DNA of 64,000 nt from a virus: the IMG/VR virus record IMGVR_UViG_3300020477_001611, positions 37,155-101,154 of that record. The stretch is one strand, 5' to 3'. Positions within the stretch are counted from its first letter, which is position 1. Each line of letters opens with the position of its first letter. Under the pieces are notes generated by a model, which saw only the letters and a program-made list of their open reading frames with translations, was not told where the DNA came from and ran no database searches. This document shows, one piece after another, positions 1 through 50,340 of this stretch. The position numbers and the translations under genes are program-made.

Positions 1-3000
1 CGTCTAAAGCAGCACCGGGTTCATCCAAGATAATAAGATTGCACTTGGGCATGTTGCTAATATTTAACAAAGCAATCCTGATGGCAACGGCGGCTAGAGT
101 TTTTTCTGCTCCAGAACCATTTTCAAGAGGCCGCGGCTCATGTTTGGGATGATGAATGAAAATATCAAGTTTGTTACCATCTTTTTCAAAATAAACTTCA
201 AAGTTTACAATATTGGCCAACACCTTTGAGATTTCTTCATTAAGAACTGGAAGTGCCTTGTTGATAATATCAAAAGCGATCCCGTTGCTGTGCATACACG
301 TTAAAAACAGATGGTGCGCTGAGTATTCTGCACTCAGCCTATCTTGCTCTGTTTTTAAATGCTGTAAGTTTTCAAGTTTTTGTTCCAAGGCGCCATGTGA
401 GCCAATCAAAGAATAGAGGCACTCATCACACTCATCAATCTTCTTTTGTCTCTCTTCGACTTCATTCTTTTTTGTTGCCAACTCTGAGTATAGTTTTTCT
501 GTATTCTCTAGAAGTTCTCTATTTTCTTCGTAGTAGCGAATCTTTTTCCATAAGTTTTGTATTAATGAAGTGCTCTTTACTAAATTGCCTGACATTCTTT
601 CATGTTGGAATTTTAAATTCATCAGTAGAGACTCTTCATCTTTTCTCTTATCAGTCAGCCTGTTAAAGTTCTCAATCCTCGACCTGATTTTAAAAAGATC
701 TAGTTTTTCTAACTCAGTGGCCTTTAATGATAGCCTCTCTTTAAGATCTTCAACAACCTTTTCAGCTATCTCCACCTGCTTCTTTGCGCTATTTGCATCT
801 TTAATAAACTTACAGGTGGTAATAAATTGATTACCACAAGGCACTTCATTTAAAATATTTGTCTGCCTATTAAAATTGCTAAGATCTTTTTCAGAGTGTC
901 CCTTCTTTTGTGTAAGTTTTACAATCTCTTTTTCTATCTCATCAGCGCGGTCAGATTCGCTATTAAGATTAACAATGCCGAGTGCGCTCAAGAGCTTTTC
1001 ACTCTTTTGTAAAAAAATCTCTTTTTCCTCGATTTGCTGAAGGGTATCTTCTATCTTCTTAACCAATTCATCTTCGCGAACTTGCTGATCAAGCAGTTGC
1101 TGCCTCACCTCTTTAATATGAATAATTTCGTCTGGCAAGTCAAAAAGGGCTGCTTCCAACTCCGTAATTTCCTGTTGAAGCGCACCCAACTCTATTTTTA
1201 AACCAGCGCACTCATTTTTCTTTTTCGCTACGTCTGCCCCCGCTTCAAAAATTTCTTCTTTGACCTTCTTCATGTCCTCGTCATAATCAATATCTTTGAT
1301 CCTTTTTAGGACCCCTCGCAGTTCTGATACCTCTTCTTTAGCTAGCTTAAATTTCTTTTCAAAGAACTCCAAGTCCAAGAACTTAGCAAGGATCTCCTTG
1401 CGCCTTGTCGAGCCTTCGTTAATAAACTGCATAGAGCCAAGCTGAGAAGACATAGATGTTAACAAAAAGTCTTCTAGCGTTCCTAACATTTTTTTAATGT
1501 TTCTATCAGTGCCGTGTCTTTCAGTAGAATTAAGGTTGTATGTCCTGTTCATAACGTTATCAGTGCATACAAATTCTACATCGGTTTTTGCCTCATTCGT
1601 AACAGCGCCTTTAAGCTTCTTAACGTATTTATTTGATTCCCTTGAAATCGTGTAAGTTTTATTACCCGCTTCAATCTCCACCACCGCAGACCCTTGATCC
1701 TTGTGCTCATTGATAATGTTGTAATTCTTTCGAATATTTTTAGAAGTATTATTATAAATTGCGTAGAGTAAACTATCAATGACGCTAGATTTACCACTAT
1801 AGTTTTTACCAAAGATTCCAACAGTTCCAGCAAGTTTAGTAAAATCCAGTTCGTTCCCTTCCCCATAATTGAAGAGATTGTCCCACTTGAAATTTTTGAT
1901 TTTCCACGAAACATTTCTAGTGGTATCCTCACTGGCCTCTGCCAAGGTGTTGTATTTTGCATTAAGAGAGTATACTTCATTTAAAGTCTCCTCATCAATA
2001 TTGTACTCCTTTAAATATTCCGCTATAAGTTTTTCTTGTACACCCTGATCACGCAAATTTTCATGAATGACAGAATCTACTTCTTTTTCGACACTAATCC
2101 GCTTTGCGGCGTGGGCGCGATTCAGGAAAGAAATAGACTCTGGTTTAAAGCGTTTCTTGGCGATATCCACGGCTTTTCTGAAGATTTCGATGCTCTGGTT
2201 GTCTGAGGAAACTAAACGCAGCCTAGCGCCTTCTGGGGGCCTTGCTGACTTGGGGATTCTTCCCTTGGGAGTCAAGTTGATCGTGAAGAAAGGTTTGGGG
2301 TTGATTAGCTGATGGAAATCGCAAGTAAAGTTTTCTTTATCCTTGATGTCCCAAAGTAAAAATCCCTTGTCTAGTGATTCTCCAAAGTTCTGTTGAATAA
2401 GAGAACCCGGGTATCTAGCTTTGCCATGATTATCCACAATCTGGTTTGTTCTGTGGATGTCTCCCAACAAGCCATAATCAAAATTCTCTAAGAAATCGAT
2501 GTCTATTTCGCCATGCTCCATAACCCAGCCAGTGTCCGTTTTTGATCCAGCAACAGCACCGTGATAAAGTGCTAAGTTGATTTTGTTCGGGTCTGATGGT
2601 GGCGCCCACTTGTCCTGATCAAGAATAGAAAGAACATTAAGCACAATGCCCCCACCAACATCCACCTCTTTTGTATATTTATGAAAGTGAATGTTGGGGT
2701 CTTCCAACGCCTCAACAAGTGGTGTAACCGCGTCAAGACGGCTGGAGTTTTTAACATTACAATCGTGATTGCCCAAAATCATATGCAATGGAGCAATCTT
2801 CGCTAGGCTGGTGAACAGCCACGAAGTTAAATTAAAATACTCTGGACTCAGATTACACTTGGTGTGTGCTGTGTCTCCTGTATTAACAATAATGTCTGGT
2901 TTAAGTTCTTCCAGCTTATCAAATAGCTGTTGAAAAACTTCTCTATATTCATAGTGATACTTATAGTTTCGCACATGAATATCGCTAATGTGCGCAATTT

Positions 3001-3004
3001 TCAT
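1..3004 (-). CDS. Fused SbcD-SbcC (gp47-gp46) recombination nuclease/ATPase, C-terminal end beyond the window
   Basis: One open frame runs from an ATG at 3004 to the window edge (1001 residues), with no stop at the expected subunit boundary near 1980. Residues 1-340 are a calcineurin-like phosphoesterase of the SbcD/Mre11/gp47 type: D8-x-H10, GD at 43-44, GNHD at 78-81, and a later GDIH. From about residue 380 it is an SbcC/Rad50/gp46 ATPase: Walker A GKNYSGKS at 399-406, long charged (coiled-coil-like) arms, a cysteine pair C723/C731 where a zinc hook would sit, an ABC signature NGSGAEKT, and Walker B ILDEP with D994 and E995. In T4 these are two proteins forming a complex that resects DNA ends for recombination-dependent replication. 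Here they appear joined. The last residues after the D-loop lie outside the window. It follows the primase gene after 9 bases. Confidence 0.93.
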   Translation of the reverse strand, partial: MKIAHISDIHVRNYKYHYEYREVFQQLFDKLEELKPDIIVNTGDTAHTKCNLSPEYFNLTSWLFTSLAKIAPLHMILGNHDCNVKNSSRLDAVTPLVEALEDPNIHFHKYTKEVDVGGGIVLNVLSILDQDKWAPPSDPNKINLALYHGAVAGSKTDTGWVMEHGEIDIDFLENFDYGLLGDIHRTNQIVDNHGKARYPGSLIQQNFGESLDKGFLLWDIKDKENFTCDFHQLINPKPFFTINLTPKGRIPKSARPPEGARLRLVSSDNQSIEIFRKAVDIAKKRFKPESISFLNRAHAAKRISVEKEVDSVIHENLRDQGVQEKLIAEYLKEYNIDEETLNEVYSLNAKYNTLAEASEDTTRNVSWKIKNFKWDNLFNYGEGNELDFTKLAGTVGIFGKNYSGKSSVIDSLLYAIYNNTSKNIRKNYNIINEHKDQGSAVVEIEAGNKTYTISRESNKYVKKLKGAVTNEAKTDVEFVCTDNVMNRTYNLNSTERHGTDRNIKKMLGTLEDFLLTSMSSQLGSMQFINEGSTRRKEILAKFLDLEFFEKKFKLAKEEVSELRGVLKRIKDIDYDEDMKKVKEEIFEAGADVAKKKNECAGLKIELGALQQEITELEAALFDLPDEIIHIKEVRQQLLDQQVREDELVKKIEDTLQQIEEKEIFLQKSEKLLSALGIVNLNSESDRADEIEKEIVKLTQKKGHSEKDLSNFNRQTNILNEVPCGNQFITTCKFIKDANSAKKQVEIAEKVVEDLKERLSLKATELEKLDLFKIRSRIENFNRLTDKRKDEESLLMNLKFQHERMSGNLVKSTSLIQNLWKKIRYYEENRELLENTEKLYSELATKKNEVEERQKKIDECDECLYSLIGSHGALEQKLENLQHLKTEQDRLSAEYSAHHLFLTCMHSNGIAFDIINKALPVLNEEISKVLANIVNFEVYFEKDGNKLDIFIHHPKHEPRPLENGSGAEKTLAAVAIRIALLNISNMPKCNLIILDEPGAALD

Positions 3005-3013
3005 ATAATAACC

Positions 3014-3955
3014 TCAAAATTTAATGCCAGCGAACAGCAAAGAAAGATCACTCGTTATAGGAGTTGCATTTTCTTTTTTAATCTGGAACTGCTCCTTGGT
3101 CATTTCGCCAACGTCTTTAAACGCGCCTACATCTATTTTAAAGACTTTTATTCCATATTTCAAGAAGTTTTTTATAATTTTCTCTTCCTTGTAAGAAACA
3201 TCGGGATCTAAAGCCAAGTATATCAAAGGCTTGTGTTCAACTATTTTTTGAAACAAATAAGACCCTTCCTTAAGAGTCGAACCCAAAAGGGGAATCGTAT
3301 TTGTCCCTCCCACGATGGCATCAAACACCCCCTCTACTATTGTAACTGGCTTAAAAAAATTAATATTTAATTCATTGAAAATGATTTCATTCTTTGCAAC
3401 GGAAGGATTCAAATATTTTTTTTGACCTTTATTATAAGAGCGGGCAATAAAATAATTTACATCGCCGTTTATATCAAACGAAGGGATAATCAAACGCCCG
3501 CTGTATTCCCCACTTGGACAGTAGCCAATTTTCCACCTAACTATATCTTTTGTGTAGACGCGACGTTTCTTAAGATAGGAGATTGGCCCCAACGAAGAAA
3601 GGGGAAGGTCTGTGTCCGTAAGAGAGACAAACTCTTTAGGCAGGTTCAACGTTGGCCTACGAATTGAACCCCCCTTTTTGAAAAGCTCATTTAATTTACT
3701 TTCTATATCAGAAAAGTCAACTATGTTATTTAATCTTTTCCATGCGTCAAGATGTTCAATCGTGCCAAATCGCTTAATTAAGTATATTATTTTACTTCCT
3801 GATTTATCACACACCCAACATTTAAACTTGTTTTTTCCCAAATTAACTGAGAGTTTCTTTTTTGGGTGGCCACAGTAACCACAATTAAACAAGACCTCAT
3901 CGCCCGAACGATAATAAGACCCTAAAACTTCTTTTAATAATTTTAATTTTTCCAC
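3014..3955 (-). CDS. DnaG-type DNA primase (T4 gp61-like)
   Basis: Synthesises RNA primers for lagging-strand replication and would act with the phage helicase. The 313-residue protein starts with a zinc ribbon (CGYCGH near residue 25 and CWVC near 47). The catalytic Toprim fold follows, with VEGVFDAI near residue 208 (the acidic Toprim motif) and LALDPDV near 250 (the DxD-type metal site). The length is typical of phage primases without a helicase domain. The start codon is GTG at 3955. There is no strong Shine-Dalgarno, only AGG four bases upstream. A consensus promoter ends so close to this codon that the mRNA may be nearly leaderless. It lies between the resolvase and the SbcD-SbcC fusion in a DNA-metabolism block. 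Confidence 0.9.
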   Translation of the reverse strand: MEKLKLLKEVLGSYYRSGDEVLFNCGYCGHPKKKLSVNLGKNKFKCWVCDKSGSKIIYLIKRFGTIEHLDAWKRLNNIVDFSDIESKLNELFKKGGSIRRPTLNLPKEFVSLTDTDLPLSSLGPISYLKKRRVYTKDIVRWKIGYCPSGEYSGRLIIPSFDINGDVNYFIARSYNKGQKKYLNPSVAKNEIIFNELNINFFKPVTIVEGVFDAIVGGTNTIPLLGSTLKEGSYLFQKIVEHKPLIYLALDPDVSYKEEKIIKNFLKYGIKVFKIDVGAFKDVGEMTKEQFQIKKENATPITSDLSLLFAGIKF

Positions 3956-3962
3956 AGAACCT

Positions 3963-3990
3963 ATTATACACTATTCTGTTGTTTTGTCAA
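3963..3990 (-). promoter_or_regulatory. Perfect-consensus sigma70 promoter for primase and SbcDC
   Basis: On the minus strand, TTGACA (3990-3985) is followed by a 16-base spacer and TATAAT (3968-3963). Both hexamers match the bacterial housekeeping consensus exactly. The promoter lies inside the last codons and stop codon of the resolvase gene. Initiation 6-7 bases past the -10 box would fall at 3957-3956, only one or two bases before the GTG start of the primase. It would let host RNA polymerase transcribe the primase and nuclease genes independently of the virion genes upstream. Confidence 0.65.
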
Positions 3991-4488
3991 GTGTGCATAA
4001 AGCGCCAACACCATGCTGTCTGCCCTATCATAGCTTCCCGGTTTTGGGTTCCCCGCCTTGGTCAGTTCGTATTTAAAGTCGGGGATTGTTTTCTCTACAT
4101 GCTCCAGAACAACCTCTTTTGCCTTTTGTCCTCGTTTAACCTTTATACCAACGCTTTTTCTTGCCGTCGTCGCGGAAACATATTCTGGCTCTATGCCCGT
4201 CAAGCGGTAACACATCCAACTAACAACACCATTAAATTTTGATAGAGTTGTTAGTGTCTTTGCTGATGAAAAACCGGGACGGAACATCTGCAATGATTGC
4301 TCTATCACTATTTTTGTAATGGGGAATTTTATTTTTGTGTCAAGGAGTCGCGTGCGAATAAAAGCCGCCTTTTCAAAAAAGTTTTTATATTTACGAGTAT
4401 CCCAAGCCTCGCACATTAAAACATTACCTTTCTTGTCAATCACTGTTGCGCCGGTAATGCTGGTTGAAATATCTAGTCCAAGTATCAT
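3964..4488 (-). CDS. RuvC-like Holliday junction resolvase
   Basis: A 174-residue RNase H-fold nuclease expected to cleave branched DNA during recombination or before packaging, the task T4 gives to the unrelated gp49. The acidic residues of the RuvC fold are visible: LGLDIS at residues 3-8 (first Asp), VIEQS near 87 (Glu), and YDRADSMVLAL near 155 (C-terminal Asp pair). The family length is about 170 residues. The start is the ATG at 4488, right after an AT-rich stretch, with no obvious Shine-Dalgarno. The last codons carry the primase promoter. The neighbours (primase, SbcD-SbcC) support a recombination and replication role. Confidence 0.85.
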   Translation of the reverse strand: MILGLDISTSITGATVIDKKGNVLMCEAWDTRKYKNFFEKAAFIRTRLLDTKIKFPITKIVIEQSLQMFRPGFSSAKTLTTLSKFNGVVSWMCYRLTGIEPEYVSATTARKSVGIKVKRGQKAKEVVLEHVEKTIPDFKYELTKAGNPKPGSYDRADSMVLALYAHLTKQQNSV

Positions 4489-36372: not shown

Positions 36373-37295
36373 TCTACCCCTCGTATATTATGAGGATAGT
36401 TGTCCAAAAACCACTCACATGTATTTCTTATAGCCGAATCAAAAGACACATATTCATCTTGTGTCCACCCCATTGCACGCATCTTGGATTTATCAGACGG
36501 CTTCTTAAATTGTCCAGCAGGCATTTTAATATCCCAATTTATTTTTCCCCTATAATCCATAACTTCTGCTATTTTCTCGGCAGCCTGCCGAATAGACACT
36601 TCCCGGGAATTACCAACATTTATAGGGCCCTCTCCATTATAGTTTTTTAATACGAACAACAACTCTCTAGCCAAGTCCCTAGAGTAGGTAAACTCTCTAA
36701 GCGGAGAGCCGTCGCCCCACAATACAATATCAGCTTCATTGATCTGTGCCTCATGCATTTTTCGGATAATGGCGGGAATCACATGCGAATCATTTAAATC
36801 AAAATTATCATATTCGCCAAATAAATTATTAGGAACCGCTGTAATATAATTACAACCATATTCTTTCCGGTAAGCTCGCGATTGCACATCCAGCATTCTT
36901 TTAACATGTGCATAGGCAAAGTTGCTGGGGTGTGGTGGGCCCGAATGAACCTGTTTCTCCGTTAATGGATATTTGATAGCATCGGGAAATATACATGTGC
37001 TCAGCATCGACAAAACCTTTTTAACGCCGGCCCTCCTGCAAGCCTCTAGCGTATTCGTGTTAATAAGGATATTGTCAAAATAAAAGTTGCCGGGGGAATC
37101 AGAATTTGCTTTTATGCCCCCTACTTTTCCAGCCAAGTGTATAACGTGAGTCGGCCGATGTTTTGAAATAACAGTACAGGCCTCCTCTAGGTTTCTCAAA
37201 TCACACTCACGAGAAGACAGATATATTGCCTCGCAGCCATTGGCCTGAAAGGCCTTTCCTAACATGCCGGATCCGCCGGTAATCAAAATTTTCAT
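36369..37295 (-). CDS. fcl: GDP-L-fucose synthase
   Basis: Epimerises and reduces GDP-4-keto-6-deoxymannose to GDP-L-fucose. Motifs: GGSGMLG at residues 7-13, GKVGGIKANS, MLSTCIFP, the catalytic YAHVK, PNNLFGEYDNFD, and REFTYSRDLA. This is the standard Fcl/WcaG pattern at 308 residues. It overlaps the gmd gene, so GDP-L-fucose, or a derivative of it, is the most likely product of this end of the island. Confidence 0.86.
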   Translation of the reverse strand: MKILITGGSGMLGKAFQANGCEAIYLSSRECDLRNLEEACTVISKHRPTHVIHLAGKVGGIKANSDSPGNFYFDNILINTNTLEACRRAGVKKVLSMLSTCIFPDAIKYPLTEKQVHSGPPHPSNFAYAHVKRMLDVQSRAYRKEYGCNYITAVPNNLFGEYDNFDLNDSHVIPAIIRKMHEAQINEADIVLWGDGSPLREFTYSRDLARELLFVLKNYNGEGPINVGNSREVSIRQAAEKIAEVMDYRGKINWDIKMPAGQFKKPSDKSKMRAMGWTQDEYVSFDSAIRNTCEWFLDNYPHNIRGVE

Positions 37296-37305
37296 ATTTT
37301 TTCCT

Positions 37306-38079
37306 CTATGATTTTTCTATTGTAATGCGCGTGGATGGGAGCAAAACAGCGCTACTTGTTGAAGGTAGCCTAAAGCTCTCCTCGGGGAGGCCCTCTAGAT
37401 ACTCGCGAACTTTTCGCTTATCCTCTTCCCACAATGGCTTATCTTCATTGTAAAACTTATCACATGTATAGTTGGGCACGTTTCTTTTATCCCAGTCATG
37501 CCAAAAAGTCAAATCCTCGTCCGTGAGTTGAAATCCAAGATCAGTGGCGATGTCTCCCATCCATAAGTCAATTTGCATATTGTATGAAACATGGCCCATT
37601 GCATCATAAAAGTCTCTATTAAGATATGGAACCGTTGCACATGGATGCGTATGGCCATCGGCACCATCATACACCATCGTTCTGATATGTACAAATTTTC
37701 CCCGATATCTCTCTTTTATTAGCTTATCCCAACATTCCGTTGTGTTGGTCATATCATCAGTGGCAAAGTGGATCCACTCCCCACGAGCCATCGAGGCCAG
37801 CTTATTCCAACATTCGTGCAGTTCTCCCCATGGGCGCCGAGTTTGAAAAATGTGATATTTGAAATTCAAGGACCCCCACGCTCTTACTTGATAACTTTGA
37901 AGTTGACTAATACTAGCCACATCATCATGGTCCATTCCAACAATAAATTCTATATCATTAAGATCGTGCGCCTTATCAATAAAACTATGTAATGTTTTGA
38001 TCATGCCCATCAGCCGCTCTCTAGTCAGCAGCAGAACACTCACAAATGGCCTTTTTTCTTCTAAATTTTCTTCTGGCAT
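37306..38079 (-). CDS. Family 2-like glycosyltransferase (257 residues)
   Basis: The N-terminal half has the GT-A fold pattern: FVSVLLLTRERLMGMIKTLHSF (in part), then EFIVGMDHDDVASI, where the DHDD acidic cluster could bind the metal and nucleotide sugar. WGELHECWNKLASMARGEW and HFATDDM follow, the usual GT2 acceptor region. The C-terminal ~70 residues are a charged extension. It would transfer one of the island's sugars. It lies ten bases upstream of the fcl gene. Donor and acceptor are unknown. Confidence 0.62.
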   Translation of the reverse strand: MPEENLEEKRPFVSVLLLTRERLMGMIKTLHSFIDKAHDLNDIEFIVGMDHDDVASISQLQSYQVRAWGSLNFKYHIFQTRRPWGELHECWNKLASMARGEWIHFATDDMTNTTECWDKLIKERYRGKFVHIRTMVYDGADGHTHPCATVPYLNRDFYDAMGHVSYNMQIDLWMGDIATDLGFQLTDEDLTFWHDWDKRNVPNYTCDKFYNEDKPLWEEDKRKVREYLEGLPEESFRLPSTSSAVLLPSTRITIEKS

Positions 38080-38094
38080 CGTGTATTTTCCTTT

Positions 38095-39102
38095 TTACCT
38101 TGTTAAAAACTGCCTTTCAGATGACACCCTATTTCTCCAATAATCCAATAAATCGTTCATAGTCTCTTCAAAAGATATTTCAGGGTGCCAGCCAGTATGA
38201 GAAGTAAATTTAGTAGTGTCAGGAACTTGCAAATCGGCATCTACAGGCCTTAGTCTTTCTTTATCAACTTCCACCATGATGTTTTTACTTGTTGATTTAG
38301 ATATTAAATATTTCAACATTTCCCCTATGGTACATGAAAAAGTGCCCCCTATGTTATAATATTCTCCAGAAACAGGATTTTTGGTGACAAGCAAATAATA
38401 AGCCCTCACGGCATCTCTCACATCTGTCCAAGTCCTTAAAGAATCCAAATTCCCAACCTTTACAACCGGCGGAATAAGACCGAGTTCTATCATTGCAATC
38501 TGCTTTGCAAAGGTCGATTCGGCAAAAACATCGCCGCGGCGAGGGCCCGTATGTGTAAACATCCTTGTTGTCATGATTTTCATGTTATATGCTTCTGCAT
38601 AATATCTTCCAATTAGGTCAGTTCCAATTTTAGATATTGCATACGGTGAAGCTGGATGGAAATTTTCTTCCTCAGTGATTGGCGTTCTGTCGGCAGGAAC
38701 TCTGCCATACACCTCCGAAGAGGCACAAACGTGTATGTGGGGATCAAAATTACCCTTTCTCAAAGCTTCTAACAGCTTTGCAGTCCCAATAATATTTGTA
38801 TTGAGTGTATCAAGCGGAGCATTAAAGCTGGTTTTGGGGTAGCTCTGTGCTGCTAGGTGAAAAACATAATCCGGCCTTGATTCTGCAGACGCGTCCATTA
38901 AAGAGGGTAAATCATTTAAATCGCCGTATAAAAGAAACACCCTATTTTTATTATTAATCCTGTTTGACAAATGCTCAATGTTTTCCAGATTGTCATTCCA
39001 GCGTAAAAAACCATATATCTGCCAATCAGTATTTTCTAAAAGAAAATCCGCCAAATGTGATCCGACCATACCGGTTATGCCGGTTATTAGACACCTAGTC
39101 AT
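38095..39102 (-). CDS. NAD(P)-dependent GDP-sugar dehydratase/reductase (GMD/RMD-like)
   Basis: A 335-residue extended SDR: TGITGMVGSHLADFLL at the N-terminus, VFHLAAQSYPKTSF, the catalytic CASSEVYG and SPYAISK, and THTGPRRGD. The THTGPRR and SLRTWTDVRD segments are closest to GDP-4-keto-6-deoxymannose reductases (RMD) and GMD-like enzymes. The start ATG at 39102 follows the upstream stop with an 8-base overlap; the longer open frame above it lies inside the previous gene. It would act on a GDP-4-keto-6-deoxy sugar. Confidence 0.72.
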   Translation of the reverse strand: MTRCLITGITGMVGSHLADFLLENTDWQIYGFLRWNDNLENIEHLSNRINNKNRVFLLYGDLNDLPSLMDASAESRPDYVFHLAAQSYPKTSFNAPLDTLNTNIIGTAKLLEALRKGNFDPHIHVCASSEVYGRVPADRTPITEEENFHPASPYAISKIGTDLIGRYYAEAYNMKIMTTRMFTHTGPRRGDVFAESTFAKQIAMIELGLIPPVVKVGNLDSLRTWTDVRDAVRAYYLLVTKNPVSGEYYNIGGTFSCTIGEMLKYLISKSTSKNIMVEVDKERLRPVDADLQVPDTTKFTSHTGWHPEISFEETMNDLLDYWRNRVSSERQFLTR

Positions 39103-40096
39103 TGAAGTAATTGTTCCTTGTCTTGTAAAGATCTCTGTTTTCCGCAAACCAATCGACTGTTTCTTTAAGTCCCTCGTACAAAGATGTCTTGTTTTTAATC
39201 CCATGGGATTCTGCTCTAGAAGTATCCATGATCCTCTTCGCGTCACCCTTTGGTTTGCTTGTATCCCAAACAATGTCAACATTTTTATCGTAAATGTCTC
39301 TAATGGTTTCTGCCAATTCTTTAATGGTGATTCCTGTGCCCGATCCTAAGTTAACCGGCTCTGTGACACCGTTTTCTACTAATTTAATCATTGCTGCTGC
39401 GCAGTCGTCGGCATAAATGAAATCTCTAATGGGGGCCCCATCCCCCCAGCAGACTAACGGTGATTCTCCAGAAGCTATTCGATTAATTAAAGATGGAATC
39501 ACCATAGCATTATTTGGATCAAAATTGTCCCATTTTCCATATACGTTAGCGGGGCGCGCAATTGAAATATTATTCTTTCCATTTTGTACCGCGTAGGCGC
39601 CCGCTTGAAGTTCCCCGATCCTCTTAGACCAGCCGGGATATTTGTCGTTCTCTGAAGGGAACGTTTTCCAAACATCGTCCTCCTTAAAAACTGGGGCTGG
39701 ATGGTACACTCCAACAGAACTAGTGTACAAGTACCACTCAACCCCCTCTCTCATAGCCGCTTCCATCATATTCGTATTAAACATCAACATTGGTACCATA
39801 AATTTTGCTGGCTTTTCGCGTGACATTTTTGGGGAACCCTTAATGCCAATTAAATTAAATACATATTCTTGGCCCTCAACAGCCTTAAGGCAATTTTCAA
39901 ATGAGGTCAAATCTAGCTTTTTAAAATTAACACCTGTGGGCAGTCCCGCAGGATCGTCCAAGGAAACAACAGTCACTCTACAGCCTTTTTCGACGAGCCT
40001 ATCTACCAAGTAACGGCCGATCATGCCGGTTCCGCCAGTAACTAAAACTTTTTTATTTACTAAGTTATTTTTAAAAATAGACACTCTCGCCCCCAT
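39095..40096 (-). CDS. NAD-dependent epimerase-like SDR, catalytic Tyr displaced
   Basis: Rossmann motif GGTGMIG near the N-terminus, YTSSVGVY, PANVYGKWDNFD, and WGDGAPIRDFIYADD place it with GDP-fucose synthase-like SDRs. The active-site Tyr-x3-Lys is not standard: the segment reads YPGWSK, with Pro four residues before the Lys and Tyr five before. Related enzymes usually show YGWSK here. It may be inactive, or act without that tyrosine. The start ATG at 40096 is chosen; TTG at 40105 and GTG at 40084 (with GGGGG upstream) are alternatives, all inside the previous gene. Confidence 0.68.
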   Translation of the reverse strand: MGARVSIFKNNLVNKKVLVTGGTGMIGRYLVDRLVEKGCRVTVVSLDDPAGLPTGVNFKKLDLTSFENCLKAVEGQEYVFNLIGIKGSPKMSREKPAKFMVPMLMFNTNMMEAAMREGVEWYLYTSSVGVYHPAPVFKEDDVWKTFPSENDKYPGWSKRIGELQAGAYAVQNGKNNISIARPANVYGKWDNFDPNNAMVIPSLINRIASGESPLVCWGDGAPIRDFIYADDCAAAMIKLVENGVTEPVNLGSGTGITIKELAETIRDIYDKNVDIVWDTSKPKGDAKRIMDTSRAESHGIKNKTSLYEGLKETVDWFAENRDLYKTRNNYFND

Positions 40097-40853
40097 CTGC
40101 CGCAATTGATGCCCCGCTTATCAAACTAGCTTTGTCCGAACATAGAAAAACAACCAAGTTGGCAACCTCTTCGGGAGTGCCCATACTGCCTCGCGGGAAG
40201 TTGGACCTAATAAATTCTTCAAAACCTTGTGGGTCCTTCTCCCTCATTGTCTCCCAGCCCGTATTTGGAATCCAAATACCCCCGGGCGCGACAGAATTAA
40301 ATGTAATGTTTGCCGATGCATATGCTGGATTTCTTGATAAATTTTTCATTAATGTTGTTTGCGCTGATTTTGCCACATTAAACCATGGTCGGCCGCCGGC
40401 CTGTTTTCCATAAATTGATGTAATTGCAATAACGCGCCCCCACTTTTTTTCAATCATGTGCGGTAAAAACATTCTACTATATTTCATTGCAGAAGTTAAA
40501 TTTTTATCATAAACTTCTTGCCAAACCAGATCGGTGGTCTCTAGAAGGTCTGGGGATCCCCATCGGCCGCCGCCGCCGACGTTATTTACGACAATATCAA
40601 CTCCACCCCATTTTTCTTTTATAGCAGATTCGACTTTGAAGAAGGATTCATTATCCAGTACATCTGCCACAATACAAATACTTTCTATATCATATTCAGA
40701 TAAGAAATCTTTTGCCTCTTTAACCCTTTCTGGTGTGCGGCTAAATACGGCGATGTCAACTCCCTCCTTGGCCAGTTCAATAGCGATGGCCTTTCCTATA
40801 CCATGTGTTCCGCCACTAACAAGAGCCCTCTTTCCCCTTAAATCTAAATTCAT
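40071..40853 (-). CDS. Classical SDR-family oxidoreductase with Tyr-to-Phe substitution
   Basis: A 260-residue classical SDR: SGGTHGIGKAIA for NAD(P), VVNNVGGGG (NNAG-like), Ser146 in the catalytic region, and a C-terminal GASIAADGGES. The catalytic YxxxK is FNVAK (Phe158, Lys162): the general-acid tyrosine is missing. Related SDRs in some polysaccharide clusters also carry this WFNxAK form, as recalled from general knowledge. It may be a reductase using another acid, or a non-redox protein. GGAGCAAAA gives its Shine-Dalgarno. It follows the transketolase pair and could act on the same sugar. Confidence 0.75.
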   Translation of the reverse strand: MNLDLRGKRALVSGGTHGIGKAIAIELAKEGVDIAVFSRTPERVKEAKDFLSEYDIESICIVADVLDNESFFKVESAIKEKWGGVDIVVNNVGGGGRWGSPDLLETTDLVWQEVYDKNLTSAMKYSRMFLPHMIEKKWGRVIAITSIYGKQAGGRPWFNVAKSAQTTLMKNLSRNPAYASANITFNSVAPGGIWIPNTGWETMREKDPQGFEEFIRSNFPRGSMGTPEEVANLVVFLCSDKASLISGASIAADGGESVYF

Positions 40854-41776
40854 TTTTGCTCCAAAAAATTTGTTATCTTGTTCACAACGCTAGCCTCATC
40901 TAATGAATATTTTTTATGAAGTTTTTGGCGAGTGCCATAATAAAAACAATGCTGATCTCTCACGGCTATTGGTAGAAATTTTTTATGCAAATGATGCTTA
41001 GCCAGCAAAAATCCAATCTTCTCGCCCACACCGCCCGAGTATGTATTTTCTTCTAGCGTGATAATGTTCTCGGCATTTTGTAATAATTTAAGTATTTTAT
41101 TTTCGTTCAAAGGTTTAAGTCTATAAATATCAATAACAGAAACCCCCTCAAGCCGATTTGCCGCCCCAACTGCAACATGGGTCATGTAGCCTGTAGATAA
41201 AATCAAGGTATTCTGTGGCGGGCCTTTAAGCAAGTGAGCGCCCTCTTGAACATTAAAATCGTGATTATAAATTCTATTACACACGCCCTTTTCTATTCTA
41301 AAATATTTTGGACCGTGGGTGTAATAAGCCATCTCTGCCAAGCTTCTTGAGTTTACTTCATCTGTAACGTTAAAAACTTGTAACCCGGGGAGGGTCATCA
41401 TCGCCTGAGCGTCCTGCATCCCTTGATGTGTTGGGCCATCCGTACTATATGTAAAGCCGGCGCCGACGCCAATTAAATTGACGTGAGAGTTCATTGCGCA
41501 CAAATCTATATTAACTTGCTCTAAACTCCTCATTGATATAAAGTTATTGATACTATAAACATAAACAACTTTTCCTGTTGCTGCCAACCCTGCGGCAAAA
41601 CTAATCATATTTTGTTCAGCTATGCCAACATTCAGATACTGTGAAGGGAAATCTTTTTCTATTCTTGATAACCCAAAAGCTCCATGATCTGCTGTCAATA
41701 TAATCGCTTCTTTATGTTCACTAATGATTTTATAAACGCCATCAAAAAAAGCGTCTCTCATGTCCACAATACTCAT
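40850..41776 (-). CDS. Transketolase, C-terminal (Pyr plus C-terminal domain) subunit
   Basis: A 308-residue subunit with the pyrimidine-binding domain (ILTADHGAFGLSR, then LNVGIAEQNMISFAAGLA with the catalytic Glu) and the C-terminal domain. HQGMQDAQAMMTLPG is typical. With the subunit just upstream it forms a split transketolase that moves two-carbon units between sugar phosphates. Split forms occur in archaea and in sugar clusters. Its ATG overlaps the upstream stop (ATGA). It could make the seven-carbon sedoheptulose 7-phosphate for the heptose genes elsewhere in this island. Confidence 0.82.
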   Translation of the reverse strand: MSIVDMRDAFFDGVYKIISEHKEAIILTADHGAFGLSRIEKDFPSQYLNVGIAEQNMISFAAGLAATGKVVYVYSINNFISMRSLEQVNIDLCAMNSHVNLIGVGAGFTYSTDGPTHQGMQDAQAMMTLPGLQVFNVTDEVNSRSLAEMAYYTHGPKYFRIEKGVCNRIYNHDFNVQEGAHLLKGPPQNTLILSTGYMTHVAVGAANRLEGVSVIDIYRLKPLNENKILKLLQNAENIITLEENTYSGGVGEKIGFLLAKHHLHKKFLPIAVRDQHCFYYGTRQKLHKKYSLDEASVVNKITNFLEQK

Positions 41777-42597
41777 TGTGTGCCCCTGCTGATTTCTTCT
41801 TTACAGAGATGATATGTGTCTTTATCAATGCCGCCGTGATGCCACTTATGATTATTCTCCATAAAAGAAACGCCTTTTCCCTTGGTCGTATTTGCTATAA
41901 TTACTGTTGGCTTATCGCCCCCTATAGCAGAAAAAACCTCAAAAAGTTTTTTATGATCGTGGCCGTCAACTTCAACAACGTTCCACCCAAAGGCCCTCCA
42001 TTTGTCACCAAAAGGATTTAATCTATTTATTTTTTCAGTTTGCCCGTGAATACACAGCCCATTTCTGTCCACAATAGCAATAAGATTATTAAGCGATAGG
42101 TGGGCAGAAAGTTGTGCCGCTTCCCAGATCGTCCCTTCGCAACACTCCCCATCGCCCAATACAACATACGTCTTACAGTTTTTATTGTCAAGCTTTGCTG
42201 AATATGCCATACCAGAGGCTACTCCCAAGCCATGACCCAAAGAGCCGGTGTCAAATTCAATTCCCGGGATATTATGATCCGGATGTTCTCCCAGCAACCC
42301 TTCATTATTCATCGACATAAGATCTTTTTCTGTAATTAATCCAAGCTCTTGTAATATCACATATTGCGCGATGGCGGCGTGACCCTTGCTTAATAAAAAT
42401 CGATTTCTATCTTGACTTAAATAATTTTTCTTGTTCAATCCGAGGAATCCACCATAATATAATACAGTTAGAATATCTACACACGAGTATGCTCCACCAA
42501 TATGGCCCTTCCCCGCGTTATAGATTGTTTTTAAAATTTTAAGTCTGAATTTTGTACTTAAACTTCTTAACTGCTTTACCAAAGCCTCTTTTTGCAT
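41773..42597 (-). CDS. Transketolase, N-terminal (ThDP/PP domain) subunit
   Basis: A 274-residue N-terminal half: GKGHIGGAYSCVDILTVLY (His-Gly-Gly region), LGHGLGVASGMA, the ThDP-binding motif GDGECCEGTIWEAAQ ... NRNGL-like (DRNGL), and a final WHHGG. The partner subunit follows directly. The pair replaces the single-chain bacterial transketolase of about 660 residues. TGAGGCACG provides the ribosome site before the ATG at 42597. It likely feeds the sugar island rather than central metabolism, given the neighbours. Confidence 0.82.
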   Translation of the reverse strand: MQKEALVKQLRSLSTKFRLKILKTIYNAGKGHIGGAYSCVDILTVLYYGGFLGLNKKNYLSQDRNRFLLSKGHAAIAQYVILQELGLITEKDLMSMNNEGLLGEHPDHNIPGIEFDTGSLGHGLGVASGMAYSAKLDNKNCKTYVVLGDGECCEGTIWEAAQLSAHLSLNNLIAIVDRNGLCIHGQTEKINRLNPFGDKWRAFGWNVVEVDGHDHKKLFEVFSAIGGDKPTVIIANTTKGKGVSFMENNHKWHHGGIDKDTYHLCKEEISRGTQ

Positions 42598-42603
42598 CGT
42601 GCC

Positions 42604-43161
42604 TCACATCTTGGTGCATATCATTTTTGTGTTTATTCTAGACTTCATAATGTCCTTCATCAACTCTGGACATTCATATTTCTTTAATTGCTCGACCTCA
42701 AAGCCTCTCTTCATCATATATTTTTCTATATCCACATGATAATATTTTGAAGAAAAATTATTATTAAAAAGTATTTTACCACCCTTGACAACGTTATTTA
42801 TAGCCCATTCTAAACACTGAAGGCGCAACTCGGGATGTGTTGCGGCTGCAGCAACATCGATCTCACAAAAAGCTAAATCAATTTTTTTATTTAAATTATT
42901 ACAATCAACTATTTGTATATTTGGATGTCCAAGAGGATTAAGCCAATCATACCCTATCACGCGCTCCGGCCCATATATGGAACAAAGATTTTCGATGGCC
43001 AAGCCCAAACCACAACCGACCTGCACAATGTAGCCGTTGGGCGGTATATTTAATCTTGGCAGCACATATTTTGAAACTAAAAAAGAACAATATTCATACC
43101 CATAGTGCGTCCACTTAAGAGAAGAAAAAGATTCGTCCATTTTTTCTTTTTCTGTCATCAT
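42604..43161 (-). CDS. Class I SAM-dependent methyltransferase-like protein
   Basis: The glycine motif YIVQVGCGLGLAIENL (motif I) and the later NPLGHPNIQIVDCNNL and DLAFCEIDVAAAATHPE (post-motif and acidic loop) fit a Rossmann methyltransferase, with a conserved GGKILFNNN strand at the end. The start ATG at 43161 overlaps the upstream stop and has AAGGAG eight bases upstream, giving 185 residues; a longer open frame lies inside the previous gene. It could methylate a sugar. Substrate unknown. Confidence 0.62.
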   Translation of the reverse strand: MMTEKEKMDESFSSLKWTHYGYEYCSFLVSKYVLPRLNIPPNGYIVQVGCGLGLAIENLCSIYGPERVIGYDWLNPLGHPNIQIVDCNNLNKKIDLAFCEIDVAAAATHPELRLQCLEWAINNVVKGGKILFNNNFSSKYYHVDIEKYMMKRGFEVEQLKKYECPELMKDIMKSRINTKMICTKM

Positions 43162-43835
43162 ATGATAAACTCCTTTTCCTCTAAAAGGTGTAAAGAGTCT
43201 GGTGTTGTTATTCCCGTAACTTGTAATGTCCACTTGTCCGCAATGCCTGCGTTGCAAGATAAATGATACATACCATAAGGCCATGTGTAAGTATCGCCTC
43301 TTTTCCAATTTGTTACAACATTATTGCCGATTTGTACCATGTGGCCCCAATGCCAATCTTCTAAAAACATCAAATATCTTCTCACGGTGGTAAGGTCGGA
43401 GATGTTTTGGGAGTCTCTAATCATCTTATATGTATCAAAATGCCATGGCACAACATTTCCGGGGCGCTGTCTTATCATTGCCAATGAGCAATTTGATAGT
43501 CCAGAAATTTCTGCGATGCGATGACAAAATTCAGGGAATTTGTGATCATTGGTGCTGGTGATTTGGAATCTACGTGTATTATGCTCAGTATATCCAGCGG
43601 CCACATAAAGCTCTTTGCCCCAACTCAAATTAAACTCATCTAATGGTTTATCATAATCTTCTGGGTATATATCCACGGCATGGCCTTCCTCAACTTGTTC
43701 AGTCGCTACTTTAAAATTATCAAAATCGCCCACAAATCTACCCACATATTGACCATCTTGTGATTCAATTTGTGGATCATAGTGCCAATCCTGAAGGGAT
43801 TTTTTATATTCTAGCTGACTGTCAAATTTAAACAT
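43158..43835 (-). CDS. 2-oxoglutarate/Fe(II)-dependent oxygenase (hydroxylase-like)
   Basis: A 225-residue protein with the double-stranded beta-helix metal triad: PWHFDT (His-x-Asp) near residue 130 and the distal His in MYHLSCNAG near 190, with RRYLMFLEDWHWGH between them. This resembles the Asp/Asn hydroxylase-like oxygenases seen in cyanophages and in sugar clusters. It could hydroxylate a sugar, amino acid or lipid. The ATG at 43835 has AAGGAATTTAAGA upstream. It lies next to an aminotransferase, suggesting joint modification of one substrate. Confidence 0.72.
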   Translation of the reverse strand: MFKFDSQLEYKKSLQDWHYDPQIESQDGQYVGRFVGDFDNFKVATEQVEEGHAVDIYPEDYDKPLDEFNLSWGKELYVAAGYTEHNTRRFQITSTNDHKFPEFCHRIAEISGLSNCSLAMIRQRPGNVVPWHFDTYKMIRDSQNISDLTTVRRYLMFLEDWHWGHMVQIGNNVVTNWKRGDTYTWPYGMYHLSCNAGIADKWTLQVTGITTPDSLHLLEEKEFII

Positions 43836-43837
43836 TC

Positions 43838-44776
43838 TTAAATTCCTTTATACCTTTCTTCTAGGGGTGTCCCGTTTGAAACCAAGGGCATATCCCCCAA
43901 AAGACCAGAAATTGTGACCCTTCTCCAATCTGTCCCCCTTTGAAAATCCTTAAATCTTTCATCATCTTTTGCCGCCAAACCAAAAGAAATGCAATTTGTG
44001 GGAATCAAATTGGACTCGTCACACACCATAATTTGTTTTTCCCTATATTTATCTTGAATATAATCAGGCGAAAAATGATTACATATGGCATCTCCGACAA
44101 TGCACCCCATTGTAGATACTTGGCCCAAACTGTTAAAAACATCCACCGGATCATCGTTAAATTCTCTTTTACACCTCATACCAATTCTTATTTTTTCAGT
44201 GCCATAAAACCCCTTACTCATACTAAAAGCGACACCCTTGATGCACTCTCTTTCTAAACTAAAATTTATATTTCTAGCCATAACATAATACGCACAATCA
44301 ATAAATACTGGTACTCCCAATAAGTCACACTTGTCTAAAACAGACTCTAGTTTCGGGTGAATTGAGCCATAATCACTAAACGGGACTGATACTATAAAAG
44401 CATCCCCCTCTCGGATCTCGTCATCCTCAACATAGGCCCAGCCATGATAGTTGTTTCTCCAAGAAAGCCAATGATAAGCAAATTCACCTTTAAAGCATCT
44501 CATTCTCCTATCCTTATATTCAGAATAGAAAAAATCAAAGGCCTGTGTTGAACCATGCACATAGCTTAATTTGTTAAATTCTCTTATTCCTTTCAGATTA
44601 TTATGTTTGCTTTCTTGAACCCATTCGTGAAATCTACATAAAAAATCACTTTGGATACCCCTGTCAAATAACTTAGAGGGATCATGAGCCTTTTTTATAA
44701 ATTCAAATGCCACAGAGTCTGGGACTGGGCGGGAGCCCTTTTGCAGTCCGGGCGGGCATAGCCGATTTTGTTGCAT
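43838..44776 (-). CDS. PLP-dependent aminotransferase-like enzyme (fold type I)
   Basis: A 312-residue protein. VHGSTQAFDFF (the phosphate-binding GST region), VPVFIDCAYY (the Asp that holds the pyridine nitrogen), and FSMSKGFYGTEKIRIG, where SxSK places the Schiff-base lysine and RIG follows, are the fold-type-I class I/II signature. The chain is about 80 residues shorter than standard enzymes. AGGAGTTAAGAA precedes the ATG. It sits between the ThDP pair and the oxygenase. Amination of a keto sugar or of a keto acid is plausible. Confidence 0.7.
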   Translation of the reverse strand: MQQNRLCPPGLQKGSRPVPDSVAFEFIKKAHDPSKLFDRGIQSDFLCRFHEWVQESKHNNLKGIREFNKLSYVHGSTQAFDFFYSEYKDRRMRCFKGEFAYHWLSWRNNYHGWAYVEDDEIREGDAFIVSVPFSDYGSIHPKLESVLDKCDLLGVPVFIDCAYYVMARNINFSLERECIKGVAFSMSKGFYGTEKIRIGMRCKREFNDDPVDVFNSLGQVSTMGCIVGDAICNHFSPDYIQDKYREKQIMVCDESNLIPTNCISFGLAAKDDERFKDFQRGTDWRRVTISGLLGDMPLVSNGTPLEERYKGI

Positions 44777-44786
44777 TTCTTAACTC

Positions 44787-45320
44787 CTATTGATTATAGT
44801 ATTCGCCATATTCCACCAATAACGTTGGCTTTGAATCTTTTCTTGTCAATGCTTTTTGATACGCCGGAAAAATGTCTTCCTTGTTTTCCAGCAACACTAC
44901 TTCAACATTGGTTAGTAAGTGGCGAAACGCCTCAGTATGGTCCTGCGTGTGTTGCACCCCCCCATTAAGGGGAACTTTGGCACCAATTGAAGTGCGCACT
45001 ATAACCCGTGGTTTGTAGGTCCCGCGAGTCATCTCTTCCATCTTGTCTAAATGATTAACCAATTGATTTATTGCAAGCAGTAAAAAATCAAAACGCGGAT
45101 AGCAAGTAACAGGAACATACCCCTCCATGGCCAACCCAATAGAAAGGCCCATCTGCGTTTCTTCAAACACTGGAGTTTCGATCTTTCTATCTTTATTGAT
45201 TGTTTTTAAGGTGTTATAAATTGAATTTCCGCTATAGCTGACAGACTGGCCAAGAAAAACAACTCTTGGGTCCTCTGCTAAATATTCCATCGATTTAACT
45301 AAATGATCTACATACTTCAT
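44787..45320 (-). CDS. Minimal ThDP enzyme, E1-beta-like Pyr-domain subunit
   Basis: A 177-residue Pyr domain like the N-terminal half of pyruvate/branched-chain dehydrogenase E1-beta: VVFLGQSVSYSGN, TPVFEETQMGLSIGLAMEG (catalytic Glu), GGVQHTQDHTEAF. The usual C-terminal transketolase domain (about 140 residues) is absent. With the partner upstream it makes a reduced two-subunit ThDP enzyme, like sulfopyruvate decarboxylase. The start is ATG 45320, after AAGGAAAAAAAG; a longer frame reads into the partner gene. It may form or cleave C-C bonds of a keto sugar. Confidence 0.72.
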   Translation of the reverse strand: MKYVDHLVKSMEYLAEDPRVVFLGQSVSYSGNSIYNTLKTINKDRKIETPVFEETQMGLSIGLAMEGYVPVTCYPRFDFLLLAINQLVNHLDKMEEMTRGTYKPRVIVRTSIGAKVPLNGGVQHTQDHTEAFRHLLTNVEVVLLENKEDIFPAYQKALTRKDSKPTLLVEYGEYYNQ

Positions 45321-45330
45321 CTTTTTTTCC

Positions 45331-45972
45331 TTAAAACAAAATCCACTGGCCAGTGCCATGATGTGGGTATCCCCTCTCGTAAGAATAATAAAAAACGTCT
45401 TCAGGCGGTATTGTTTTTGTTCCATTCCACGTTTCATCTGTTGGCGTATTAGTACTCATATTGTTGTCCTCGACAACAAACTCCAATGGAAGGTTGTGTC
45501 TTCTGGAGTATTTATATACCTCATTAAAAATACCAGTTTCATAAGTCATATCACCTACGAAAGCCCACACTTTTCTATCTGTACCCTTCATTTGTTGAGC
45601 TTTGGCGGCGCCAAGTGCAATTGGAATAATTCCGCCCACAATAGAAGATGTATACAATTTTGGACTTTTACAATAAACACTCATGCTCTTTCCAGCAGTT
45701 ATTAATTCCCACAAATGTTCTTCTGAGACGCCATGTAAAAGAGCGTGATAGTGGTTTCTCCAAGACGAAAAAACCCAATCCTCTGGGTTGACATATTTAA
45801 AGACTTCAATCAACTGTTTTTCATTGCCCTTTGACATGTGAACTGGACCAGTAATTGTGCCCTTTTCATATTCCTCTTTGACGCGCAACTCAAAATTTAC
45901 TAGATCTTGAGCAGTTAATTTCACATCATTAATTTCTTTATTTTTAAATTTCTCTGGAATGTGCAAATTCAT
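45331..45972 (-). CDS. Minimal ThDP enzyme, E1-alpha-like PP-domain subunit
   Basis: A 213-residue ThDP-binding subunit: GPVHMSKGNEKQLIEV, WRNHYHALLHG, IVGGIIPIALGAAKA, and the ThDP/Mg motif GDMTYETGIFNE ending in DNN (the usual GDG...NN is here GDM...NN). E1-alpha proteins have about 320-360 residues, so it is short. The ATG at 45972 (AAGGAATAAA) is preferred over an in-frame codon 33 bases upstream. Translated just before its partner, and associated with aminotransferase and epimerase genes. Confidence 0.74.
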   Translation of the reverse strand: MNLHIPEKFKNKEINDVKLTAQDLVNFELRVKEEYEKGTITGPVHMSKGNEKQLIEVFKYVNPEDWVFSSWRNHYHALLHGVSEEHLWELITAGKSMSVYCKSPKLYTSSIVGGIIPIALGAAKAQQMKGTDRKVWAFVGDMTYETGIFNEVYKYSRRHNLPLEFVVEDNNMSTNTPTDETWNGTKTIPPEDVFYYSYERGYPHHGTGQWILF

Positions 45973-45973
45973 T

Positions 45974-46933
45974 TTATTCCTTATAACTTTTTTTATACCA
46001 TTCAATGGTTTTTTGGATTCCCTCTTCTAGTGAAGTCATAGGATGCCAACCCAACTCTTCCTTCGCCTTAGTTGAAATTAACGCGAGCTTTGTGTTAATT
46101 GAAGGTTTCGTTAAATCATGCTTTATGGTAACATTTTTATTAGAAATTTTTATTATTTTTTTCACTATCTCTTTAACAGAAAATGATTCTCCATAGCCCA
46201 CATTATAAAGTTCATATTGGCTTTTCTGACTGTTAATTGCTTTGTGTATGAAGCCTACAACATCATCCACATAAAGAAGGTCTCTTTCAGTAGAGCCATC
46301 GCCCCAAACAATAATTTCTTCTCCGTCTTTGGCGTTCAAGACCTTAGTAATAGTTGCGCCGAACATGTGAGATTTTTCTAAGTCATACTTGTCGTGAGGG
46401 CCATAAGTGTTGCTGTGGCGAATAGAAGTGTGTTTTGTTTTGCCCAATCCAGCAAAAAACTCACACATTTTTTCAACATAAACTTTTGTCCAGCCAACAC
46501 CAAAATAATTTTTGAAAATTGGCTCATCTAAATAATAGTCTTTCTCTGTTACGGGCGAGCGTGCGGGATTATACATGACTCCACAGCTTAAAAACAAAAA
46601 GTGCTCTATCGAATGGTCATAACATGCCCGCAGAATAAGAGAATTCATGACTGCATTATCTGTGACATGTAGATAGGGTCTTTCTATAATGTCCTTTGCC
46701 CCTGAAGTGGTTGCTGCTGCTTGAATAACAATATCAAACTTTTCGCTATTAAACACTGCGTCGATGCCGCCTTGTGTTGTCAAATCCTCATAAAATATCT
46801 TTTTACCGGGCCAGTCATCATACCTCCTAGTATTGGCAACGCCATATACTTGAAAGTTCTCCAAATTGGAAAAATATTCTGATATGTTCCTTCCCATGAA
46901 GCCGGTAGCGCCGCAAACTAAAATCTTTTTCAC
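45974..46933 (-). CDS. GDP-fucose synthase-like SDR lacking the catalytic Tyr
   Basis: GATGFMG Rossmann motif, VIQAAATTSGAKD, FLFLSCGVMYNP, and SNTYGPHDKYD, WGDGSTERDLLYVDD: an extended SDR close to GDP-L-fucose synthase. Where Tyr-x3-Lys is expected, the sequence reads FGVGWTKVYVE: Val occupies the Tyr place (Val-Gly-Trp-Thr-Lys). The start is taken as GTG at 46933, overlapping the upstream stop (GTGA) with GGGAG eight bases upstream; a TTG 15 bases earlier is the alternative. Function in the island uncertain. Confidence 0.68.
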   Translation of the reverse strand: MKKILVCGATGFMGRNISEYFSNLENFQVYGVANTRRYDDWPGKKIFYEDLTTQGGIDAVFNSEKFDIVIQAAATTSGAKDIIERPYLHVTDNAVMNSLILRACYDHSIEHFLFLSCGVMYNPARSPVTEKDYYLDEPIFKNYFGVGWTKVYVEKMCEFFAGLGKTKHTSIRHSNTYGPHDKYDLEKSHMFGATITKVLNAKDGEEIIVWGDGSTERDLLYVDDVVGFIHKAINSQKSQYELYNVGYGESFSVKEIVKKIIKISNKNVTIKHDLTKPSINTKLALISTKAKEELGWHPMTSLEEGIQKTIEWYKKSYKE

Positions 46934-47343
46934 CAGCTTATCTCCCAATCTTTAAACTCTGCGGCCAAACAATCAATTTTATAGTCTTTTCGGCCGCCGG
47001 CATATTCCTGAATTTTATTCTTTGCTGTATTTCTAATGCCATTTAAACCATGTGTAAGCTCTAGGTTGTTTCCGTCTTTAATTCCTTTGCGGTAATTGCT
47101 TTCGTTGTGCCAAATGTGCAAATTCATCTGAGAGAGAACAACGATTGCCCTAACCGTCTCCGCATCTATATTTTCGGCCTTATTCAGTATAAGCTGAATA
47201 TCGTGACATATATCCTCTATTTCTTGCGCATACTCACTTTTATGATCTGAAATAAACACTTCCTTAAGCTGAGCGATAGAAAGTCTATCAACTAGTTCAG
47301 ATAGCGTAGGCAAGTATTTTCTTTCCGCATTATTTTCCAACAT
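46930..47343 (-). CDS. Hypothetical protein, DUF4254-like helical (137 residues)
   Basis: Helical protein with an MNLHIWHNESNYRKG segment near residue 73 and a NTAKNKIQEYAGGR segment after it. This spacing resembles the DUF4254 family found in polysaccharide clusters, but the match is by eye and weak. Its start has no Shine-Dalgarno. A TGGTATAAT box ends five bases before the ATG, so a promoter here would give a leaderless mRNA. It precedes the epimerase-ThDP-aminotransferase group and may belong to it. Confidence 0.5.
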   Translation of the reverse strand: MLENNAERKYLPTLSELVDRLSIAQLKEVFISDHKSEYAQEIEDICHDIQLILNKAENIDAETVRAIVVLSQMNLHIWHNESNYRKGIKDGNNLELTHGLNGIRNTAKNKIQEYAGGRKDYKIDCLAAEFKDWEISW

Positions 47344-47348
47344 GAACC

Positions 47349-47357
47349 ATTATACCA
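47349..47357 (-). promoter_or_regulatory. Extended -10 promoter candidate before the DUF4254-like gene
   Basis: TGGTATAAT on the minus strand, an extended -10 (TGn plus perfect TATAAT), in one of the few intergenic gaps of the sugar island. The -35 place has only a weak match (TTAAAC, 17-base spacing), which extended -10 promoters can tolerate. Expected initiation at 47343-47342 coincides with the ATG. Confidence 0.45.
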
Positions 47358-47378
47358 CTTAAACGAAAACAGTTTAAG
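47358..47378 (-). promoter_or_regulatory. Inverted repeat upstream of the candidate promoter
   Basis: Perfect 7-base arms CTTAAAC and GTTTAAG around a 7-base loop, between the methyltransferase stop and the -10 box. It overlaps the -35 position of the promoter, so it could be an operator or an RNA hairpin at the upstream transcript end. It lacks a U-run and GC-rich stem, so a terminator is unlikely. Confidence 0.35.
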
Positions 47379-47390
47379 GGGTGGACGATG

Positions 47391-48032
47391 TTATGAGGAG
47401 GCCCTCTTAAAGGCAATAAAGCCGTTTCTTTCATTGGAATAGTCTTTCAAAACATCCCATTCCTTAGATACAAGGAGGTCTTTCTTGACATCATAATTTT
47501 TTAATATGTTGGAGTCATCTAAAAGAATAATATTGGCGCGATCATTTATTTTTTTATATTCTGCATAAGAACTAAATTCGCCGCCGTCCAACAGGAGTAC
47601 ATCTATAGATGGTGGCAATTTATCAAATATATTTATACACTCCTTTTTATTATACCACTTTATGTCTCCGCTATGCCACTCCTCCCAGCCAGTATGGCGC
47701 GGTGGGCCGACCTCTGATGTTTTTATTTCTTCTAAAGTCATAATTTCTGACGGCTCAATAATTCTTCCCAAAAGGAGGTGAATTTTTTTTCGGCGATAGG
47801 CTGCTGTAATCGGCGCCCAATATGTAACAGCTTGATCGTAAAAAACAGAATGAGACTCTATACTATATAATACACTGTCGTCATCCCTCTCAAATAGCGC
47901 ATCCATAAAACATTTCGTGCTACCTTGCCCATTCCAAGTGCCTATTTCCACAAATGTTTTATTTGTTGTATCTCTTGAAAGATCATAAATTAACTCTCCG
48001 GGCCTGCTGCCTCTATTTATTTGGCCACTCAT
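47391..48032 (-). CDS. Class I SAM-dependent methyltransferase-like protein (213 residues)
   Basis: FVEIGTWNGQGST near residue 30 is a glycine-rich motif I of Rossmann methyltransferases in sugar clusters, and VLLLDGGEFSSYAEY gives the acidic motif for cofactor or metal. NIILLDDSNILKNYDV follows. The start ATG at 48032 overlaps the radical SAM stop. It may methylate a sugar hydroxyl. The inverted repeat and promoter candidate lie directly after it. No further function can be assigned. Confidence 0.62.
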   Translation of the reverse strand: MSGQINRGSRPGELIYDLSRDTTNKTFVEIGTWNGQGSTKCFMDALFERDDDSVLYSIESHSVFYDQAVTYWAPITAAYRRKKIHLLLGRIIEPSEIMTLEEIKTSEVGPPRHTGWEEWHSGDIKWYNKKECINIFDKLPPSIDVLLLDGGEFSSYAEYKKINDRANIILLDDSNILKNYDVKKDLLVSKEWDVLKDYSNERNGFIAFKRASS

Positions 48033-50339: not shown

Positions 50340-50340
50340 G

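Follow-up and report, generated by a model that had tools for sequence, protein, structure and literature searches.

A single-chain SbcD-SbcC fusion of the Mimivirus R555 kind, with a putatively exchanged coiled-coil arm, in a contractile-tailed phage

Introduction

Fusions of Mre11 and Rad50 were reported in 2011 for Mimivirus R555, for twelve further database entries, and from aquatic metagenomes (Yoshida, Claverie, Ogata; PMC3175470), and relatives of the R555 fusion were found to be abundant in aquatic viral metagenomes (PMC3175470). Fusions of this type carry the Mre11 part ahead of the Rad50 part, preserve the helix-loop-helix (HLH), and could accommodate a linker of 9-12 residues; the scaffolds of the metagenomic representatives also carry phage primase genes (PMC3175470). 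In R555 itself, Asp replaces H206 and His replaces the third Asp of GDxxD (PMC3175470). This was the sole relevant study found in the literature on SbcCD fusions. SbcC and SbcD are described as near-universal in a 2021 review of jumbo phages, the consulted passages of which make no mention of a fusion.

T4 gp47/gp46 and E. coli SbcD/SbcC share the domain set and presumed function of the protein described here, but they are made as two chains and have a GHxH motif V and a canonical CXXC hook. A closer counterpart is the full-length fused relative WWT39521.1 of Microcystis phage Mel-JY01 (1066 aa; 28.9% identity over the window-encoded protein), which likewise has a primase gene nearby upstream; unlike the query, it has a CXXC hook (CKHC) and is annotated merely as 'AAA domain containing protein'. 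The Listeria phage LMTA-57 'recombination exonuclease' (1009 aa) is also a one-frame SbcD-SbcC fusion, although it differs from the query in its position in the tree, next to unfused Twort, and in an apparent relic start, MFTFKKVKIKN.

Gene and domain organization

The DNA analyzed here (the window) is a 64,000-nucleotide stretch of a metagenomic IMG/VR record of 101,154 bases, spanning positions 37155-101154 of that record. Its first gene and the domains that it encodes are as follows.

2..3004, minus strand: fusion gene, residues 1-1001 of 1053; 1001 stop-free codons, running off the window edge
2330..3004, minus strand: calcineurin-like nuclease domain, residues ~1-225 (Pfam Metallophos at 1-176, E=2e-13; motif columns in 98 relatives), with nuclease motifs D8xH10, GD44xxH47, N79H80D81, H148, and GD182xH184
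2048..2329, minus strand: capping region, residues ~226-319 (AlphaFold strands plus helix; placed from Mre11 architecture)
1931..2047, minus strand: Rad50-binding HLH region, residues 320-358 (model helices 320-334 and 338-358)
1907..1930, minus strand: linker EDTTRNVS, residues 359-366 (~8 residues; the model starts the first ATPase strand at 367)
1325..1906, minus strand: ATPase lobe I, residues 367-560 (Walker A GKNYSGKSS at window 1784-1810; Q-loop Q521)
284..1324, minus strand: antiparallel coiled-coil arm, residues 561-907 (DSSP helices; identity breaks at 560 and 907)
812..838, minus strand: putative hook tip C723-X7-C731 (PCGNQFITTC)
2..283, minus strand: ATPase lobe II, truncated by the window edge (signature SGAEK, Walker B D994-E995, D-loop)

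The window cuts off the final 52 codons; the complete gene occupies 36997-40158 (minus strand) of the source record, encoding 1053 aa and ending in TGA. The protein begins MKIAHISDIH, has a computed mass of 120.8 kDa, and is preceded by GAGG upstream of its ATG. The first-pass annotation had placed SbcD and SbcC in one uninterrupted frame, and rightly so: the frame is open through 1922-2070 and throughout the 1001 codons, it contains both D8-x-H10 and Walker B residue Asp994 (window 23-25), and the two other forward frames contain stops in the junction region. The identity of the product as a single-chain SbcD-SbcC fusion also holds, and no second copy of SbcC or SbcD was found elsewhere in the 101-kb record.

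All five metallophosphoesterase motifs were found, with GDIH rather than GHxH as motif V, and the Rad50/SbcC set around the coiled coil is complete, including Walker A, Q-loop, signature, Walker B, D-loop, and the H-loop (H1027, outside the window and seen in the full gene). The ATPase half matches PHROG_77 SbcC at residues 293-1001 (E=3e-45) and Pfam SMC_N at 370-1001, the latter with a score under Pfam's cut-off. An AlphaFold model (mean pLDDT 79, pTM 0.43, so that relative domain placement is weak) contains a phosphoesterase fold, the capping region, the HLH helices, and long coils at 546-904. Foldseek matched it to Mre11, SbcCD, and Rad50-containing structures in the PDB and to full-length proteins in BFVD, the best being from Tupanvirus (E=4.6e-47); other full-length matches come from Harvfovirus, Catovirus, and Tenacibaculum phages, and proteins of Bacillus phage 0305phi8-36 (A7KV18), a case from 2011 (PMC3175470), and of Megavirus also match. 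The arm tip lacks the canonical CXXC zinc hook and carries C723-X7-C731 instead.

The query protein is classed with R555-type viral fusions and not with canonical Rad50. Like the R555 type, it has the Mre11-then-Rad50 order, the HLH, a short linker, a primase neighbor, and an aquatic phage setting; its D182 corresponds to the Asp at the H206 position and its H47 to the His at the third Asp. The linker of ~8 residues in the model is slightly under the 9-12 estimated for that type (PMC3175470). Compared by published description, R555 is longer (1351 aa versus 1053 aa), and the query arm is probably the shorter one. The gene fits the 2011 description on every point that could be tested; the architecture is known, and the fusion itself is ordinary.

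Conservation among fused relatives and alternative interpretations

An IMG/VR scan with the fusion protein returned 18 relatives, and in an alignment-based scan at least 583 of 600 candidate stretches encode a relative (a count of relatives rather than of verified fusions), from which the best 80 loci were kept. A single frame runs across both halves in 98 fetched loci from many samples, a set that includes the query gene plus a few overlapping or near-identical records. Among the fetched loci outside this set, three are cut short by contig ends and one by masked bases. The fusion also occurs in two isolated phages, namely Mel-JY01 (one of the 98 loci) and pT24.

An open frame could still yield a two-chain working enzyme if the ATPase half were also made by internal initiation or if the chain were cleaved. 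Coupled expression is a likely ancestral pattern, since the E. coli sbcD and sbcC frames share 4 nt and the T4 pair is separated by two small genes; moreover, a weak Shine-Dalgarno sequence accompanies an ATG within residues 290-400 in nine of the 98 loci. The query gene, however, has no ATG in residues 281-420 and only two TTG codons there (317 and 354), neither with a good ribosome site, and there is no conserved start-codon column across the 98 loci. A two-chain working enzyme is considered improbable.

Another reading holds that nuclease activity has been lost and that the protein is a structural DNA-end tether. It draws on motif V, in which the His is replaced by Asp182 (GDIH) in 98/98 loci, as opposed to GHxH in T4, Twort, and E. 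coli. Asp can ligate Mn, however, and the other metal-ligand positions, which loss of activity would be expected to erode, are all near-invariant: D8, H10, D44, N79, H80, H148, and H184 across the 98 loci, with H47 present in 93 of the 94 loci having a residue at that column. Conservation extends to the Walker A, Q-loop, signature, Walker B, and H-loop motifs. In addition, GDLH is found in the unfused SbcD of Vibrio phage D254; the His-to-Asp change is therefore not tied to fusion, and the idea that fusion caused it is weakened. The change could alter metal use or activity, but a purely structural tether appears very improbable.

At the junction, R363 of the linker is found in 98/98 loci and N364 in 97/98, and the four pairs with enough change give dN/dS values of 0.05-0.12 for residues 325-380; by this measure, the junction is under purifying selection. 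Although the record is metagenomic and T4, Twort, and E. coli keep the neighboring genes unfused, an artifact of sequencing or assembly (a missed stop or frameshift) joining two normally separate genes is effectively ruled out, because the same open frame recurs in 98 loci from many samples, including the query and isolate Mel-JY01, isolate pT24 is also fused, the junction residues are conserved with low dN/dS, and no relic ATG marks the ATPase start.

What remains is a genuine single-chain fusion, of which the complete genes and neighborhoods on long contigs confirm the short-read inference of 2011 (PMC3175470); R555-like fusions are commonly carried by many aquatic phages. The first-pass interpretation stands with regard to the fusion and to a fixed 1:1 ratio of nuclease and ATPase, which follows because both are on one chain. 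Its implied novelty does not, given that the architecture has been in the literature since 2011 and is widespread, and neither does its proposal of altered nuclease control, considered below.

Several related loci depart from the intact gene. In phage LR756508 (484 kb), a ~290-aa ORF interrupts the fusion gene inside the nuclease domain (L003:6670-7600); judged by eye, this ORF resembles a zinc-finger homing endonuclease. The broken copy gave no Rfam intron match, and without one an intron was rejected. At L075:9150-9362 and L080:7696-7905, the full gene is followed by a second, partial copy of the last ~60 residues of the fusion. The fusion gene in CP070664, the 2.8-Mb 'chromosome' of a WOR-3 bin, runs into masked bases (L026:5956-8049) and is probably phage sequence.

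Origin of the fusion

A quick tree was built from 27 fusions and seven concatenated unfused pairs. All but one of the sampled fusions (26/27) fall on one side of a branch with a support of 99, while the remaining one, from Listeria LMTA-57, groups with unfused Twort. This topology implies two or more fusion events, with long branches making the deep joins uncertain. The LMTA-57 gene may represent an independent fusion event or a read-through artifact.

Putative exchange of the coiled-coil arm

Relatives that share ~90% identity with the query in the heads share ~27% in the arm. In comparison with L005 and L018, head identity is ~80-100% per 30-residue window, whereas that of residues 561-907 falls to about 3-50%; the opposite holds for L007, with ~51-55% (~54%) in the nuclease and 70-93% (~80%) in the arm. 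The breaks in identity coincide with the borders between head and coil (residues 560 and 907). The simplest reading of these identity profiles is that the arm (residues ~561-907) was exchanged as a cassette from another lineage. A chimeric assembly involving L007 itself is unlikely, since arm identity is ~80% and not near 100%. No second genome with the same head-arm combination was found.

Most phage relatives have a hook tip of the form PCGxx(F/Y)xxC(K/R), i.e., CX6-7C, unlike the R555 type, and some have CXXC. A speculative extension, which is considered unlikely though not negligible, is that the fused head serves as a platform for recombinational exchange of whole arms, with CX6-7C tips giving arm-specific pairing that would prevent cross-tethering of the DNA of co-infecting phages. 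The arm swap and the CX6-7C hook are more unusual than the fusion itself, and the swap amounts to a natural domain-exchange experiment on the independence of arms from heads.

Gene neighborhood and proposed role

The fusion gene is directly preceded by two genes on the same strand:

3014..3955, minus strand: DNA primase (CHC2/DnaG type), upstream syntenic gene (phrog_47, E=5e-38)
3964..4488, minus strand: RuvC-like Holliday junction resolvase (phrog_159, E=1e-14)

A same-strand primase is present in 78 of the 98 loci (within 1 kb upstream in 55 of these) and RuvC in 66. The contig also carries genes for UvsX, SSB, DnaB helicase, and a 5' exonuclease, together with genes for the tail sheath and baseplate of a contractile-tailed phage. 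The jumbo-phage setting suggested initially is not established by this record, a 101-kb fragment.

Taken together, the protein is very probably a viral Mre11/Rad50 fusion of the Mimivirus R555 and aquatic phage kind, predicted to act as a homodimer in gp46/gp47-like end resection. One chain comprises a metal-dependent nuclease, a capping domain, and an HLH gripping the root of the Rad50 coil, followed through the ~8-residue linker by an ABC-type ATPase with a folded-back arm. Two such chains would dimerize, turning M2R2 into a homodimer; ATP would keep the heads closed and the nuclease shielded, and hydrolysis at a DNA end would open the nuclease to trim or nick. By analogy with T4, the most likely role is to serve, as gp46/gp47 do, in generating recombinogenic ends for UvsX-driven, recombination-dependent replication and repair.

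In solved complexes, the HLH docks Mre11 on the root of the Rad50 coil. Because the HLH is retained and the linker approximates the gap between the two chain ends of the T. maritima complex, which is about as short (PMC3175470), native geometry is the simpler expectation, and altered control of the nuclease by the ATPase is unsupported. As a single chain of ~121 kDa, this Mre11-Rad50 protein would be convenient for structural work.

Other features of the window

An adenylosuccinate synthetase-like protein of 332 aa (window 62114-63112) matches phrog_1211 and PurA models; its PurZ match is well under the cut-off, and a diaminopurine genome is no more than a possibility. An Rfam tmRNA match at window 63683-64000 (minus strand) is cut at the record end and was not reported by ARAGORN. 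Finally, a long stretch with sugar-modification genes extends over window 38095-58090, including three nucleotide-sugar epimerase genes (38095-39282, 45974-46948, and 52140-53129) and two glycosyltransferase genes (54825-58090).
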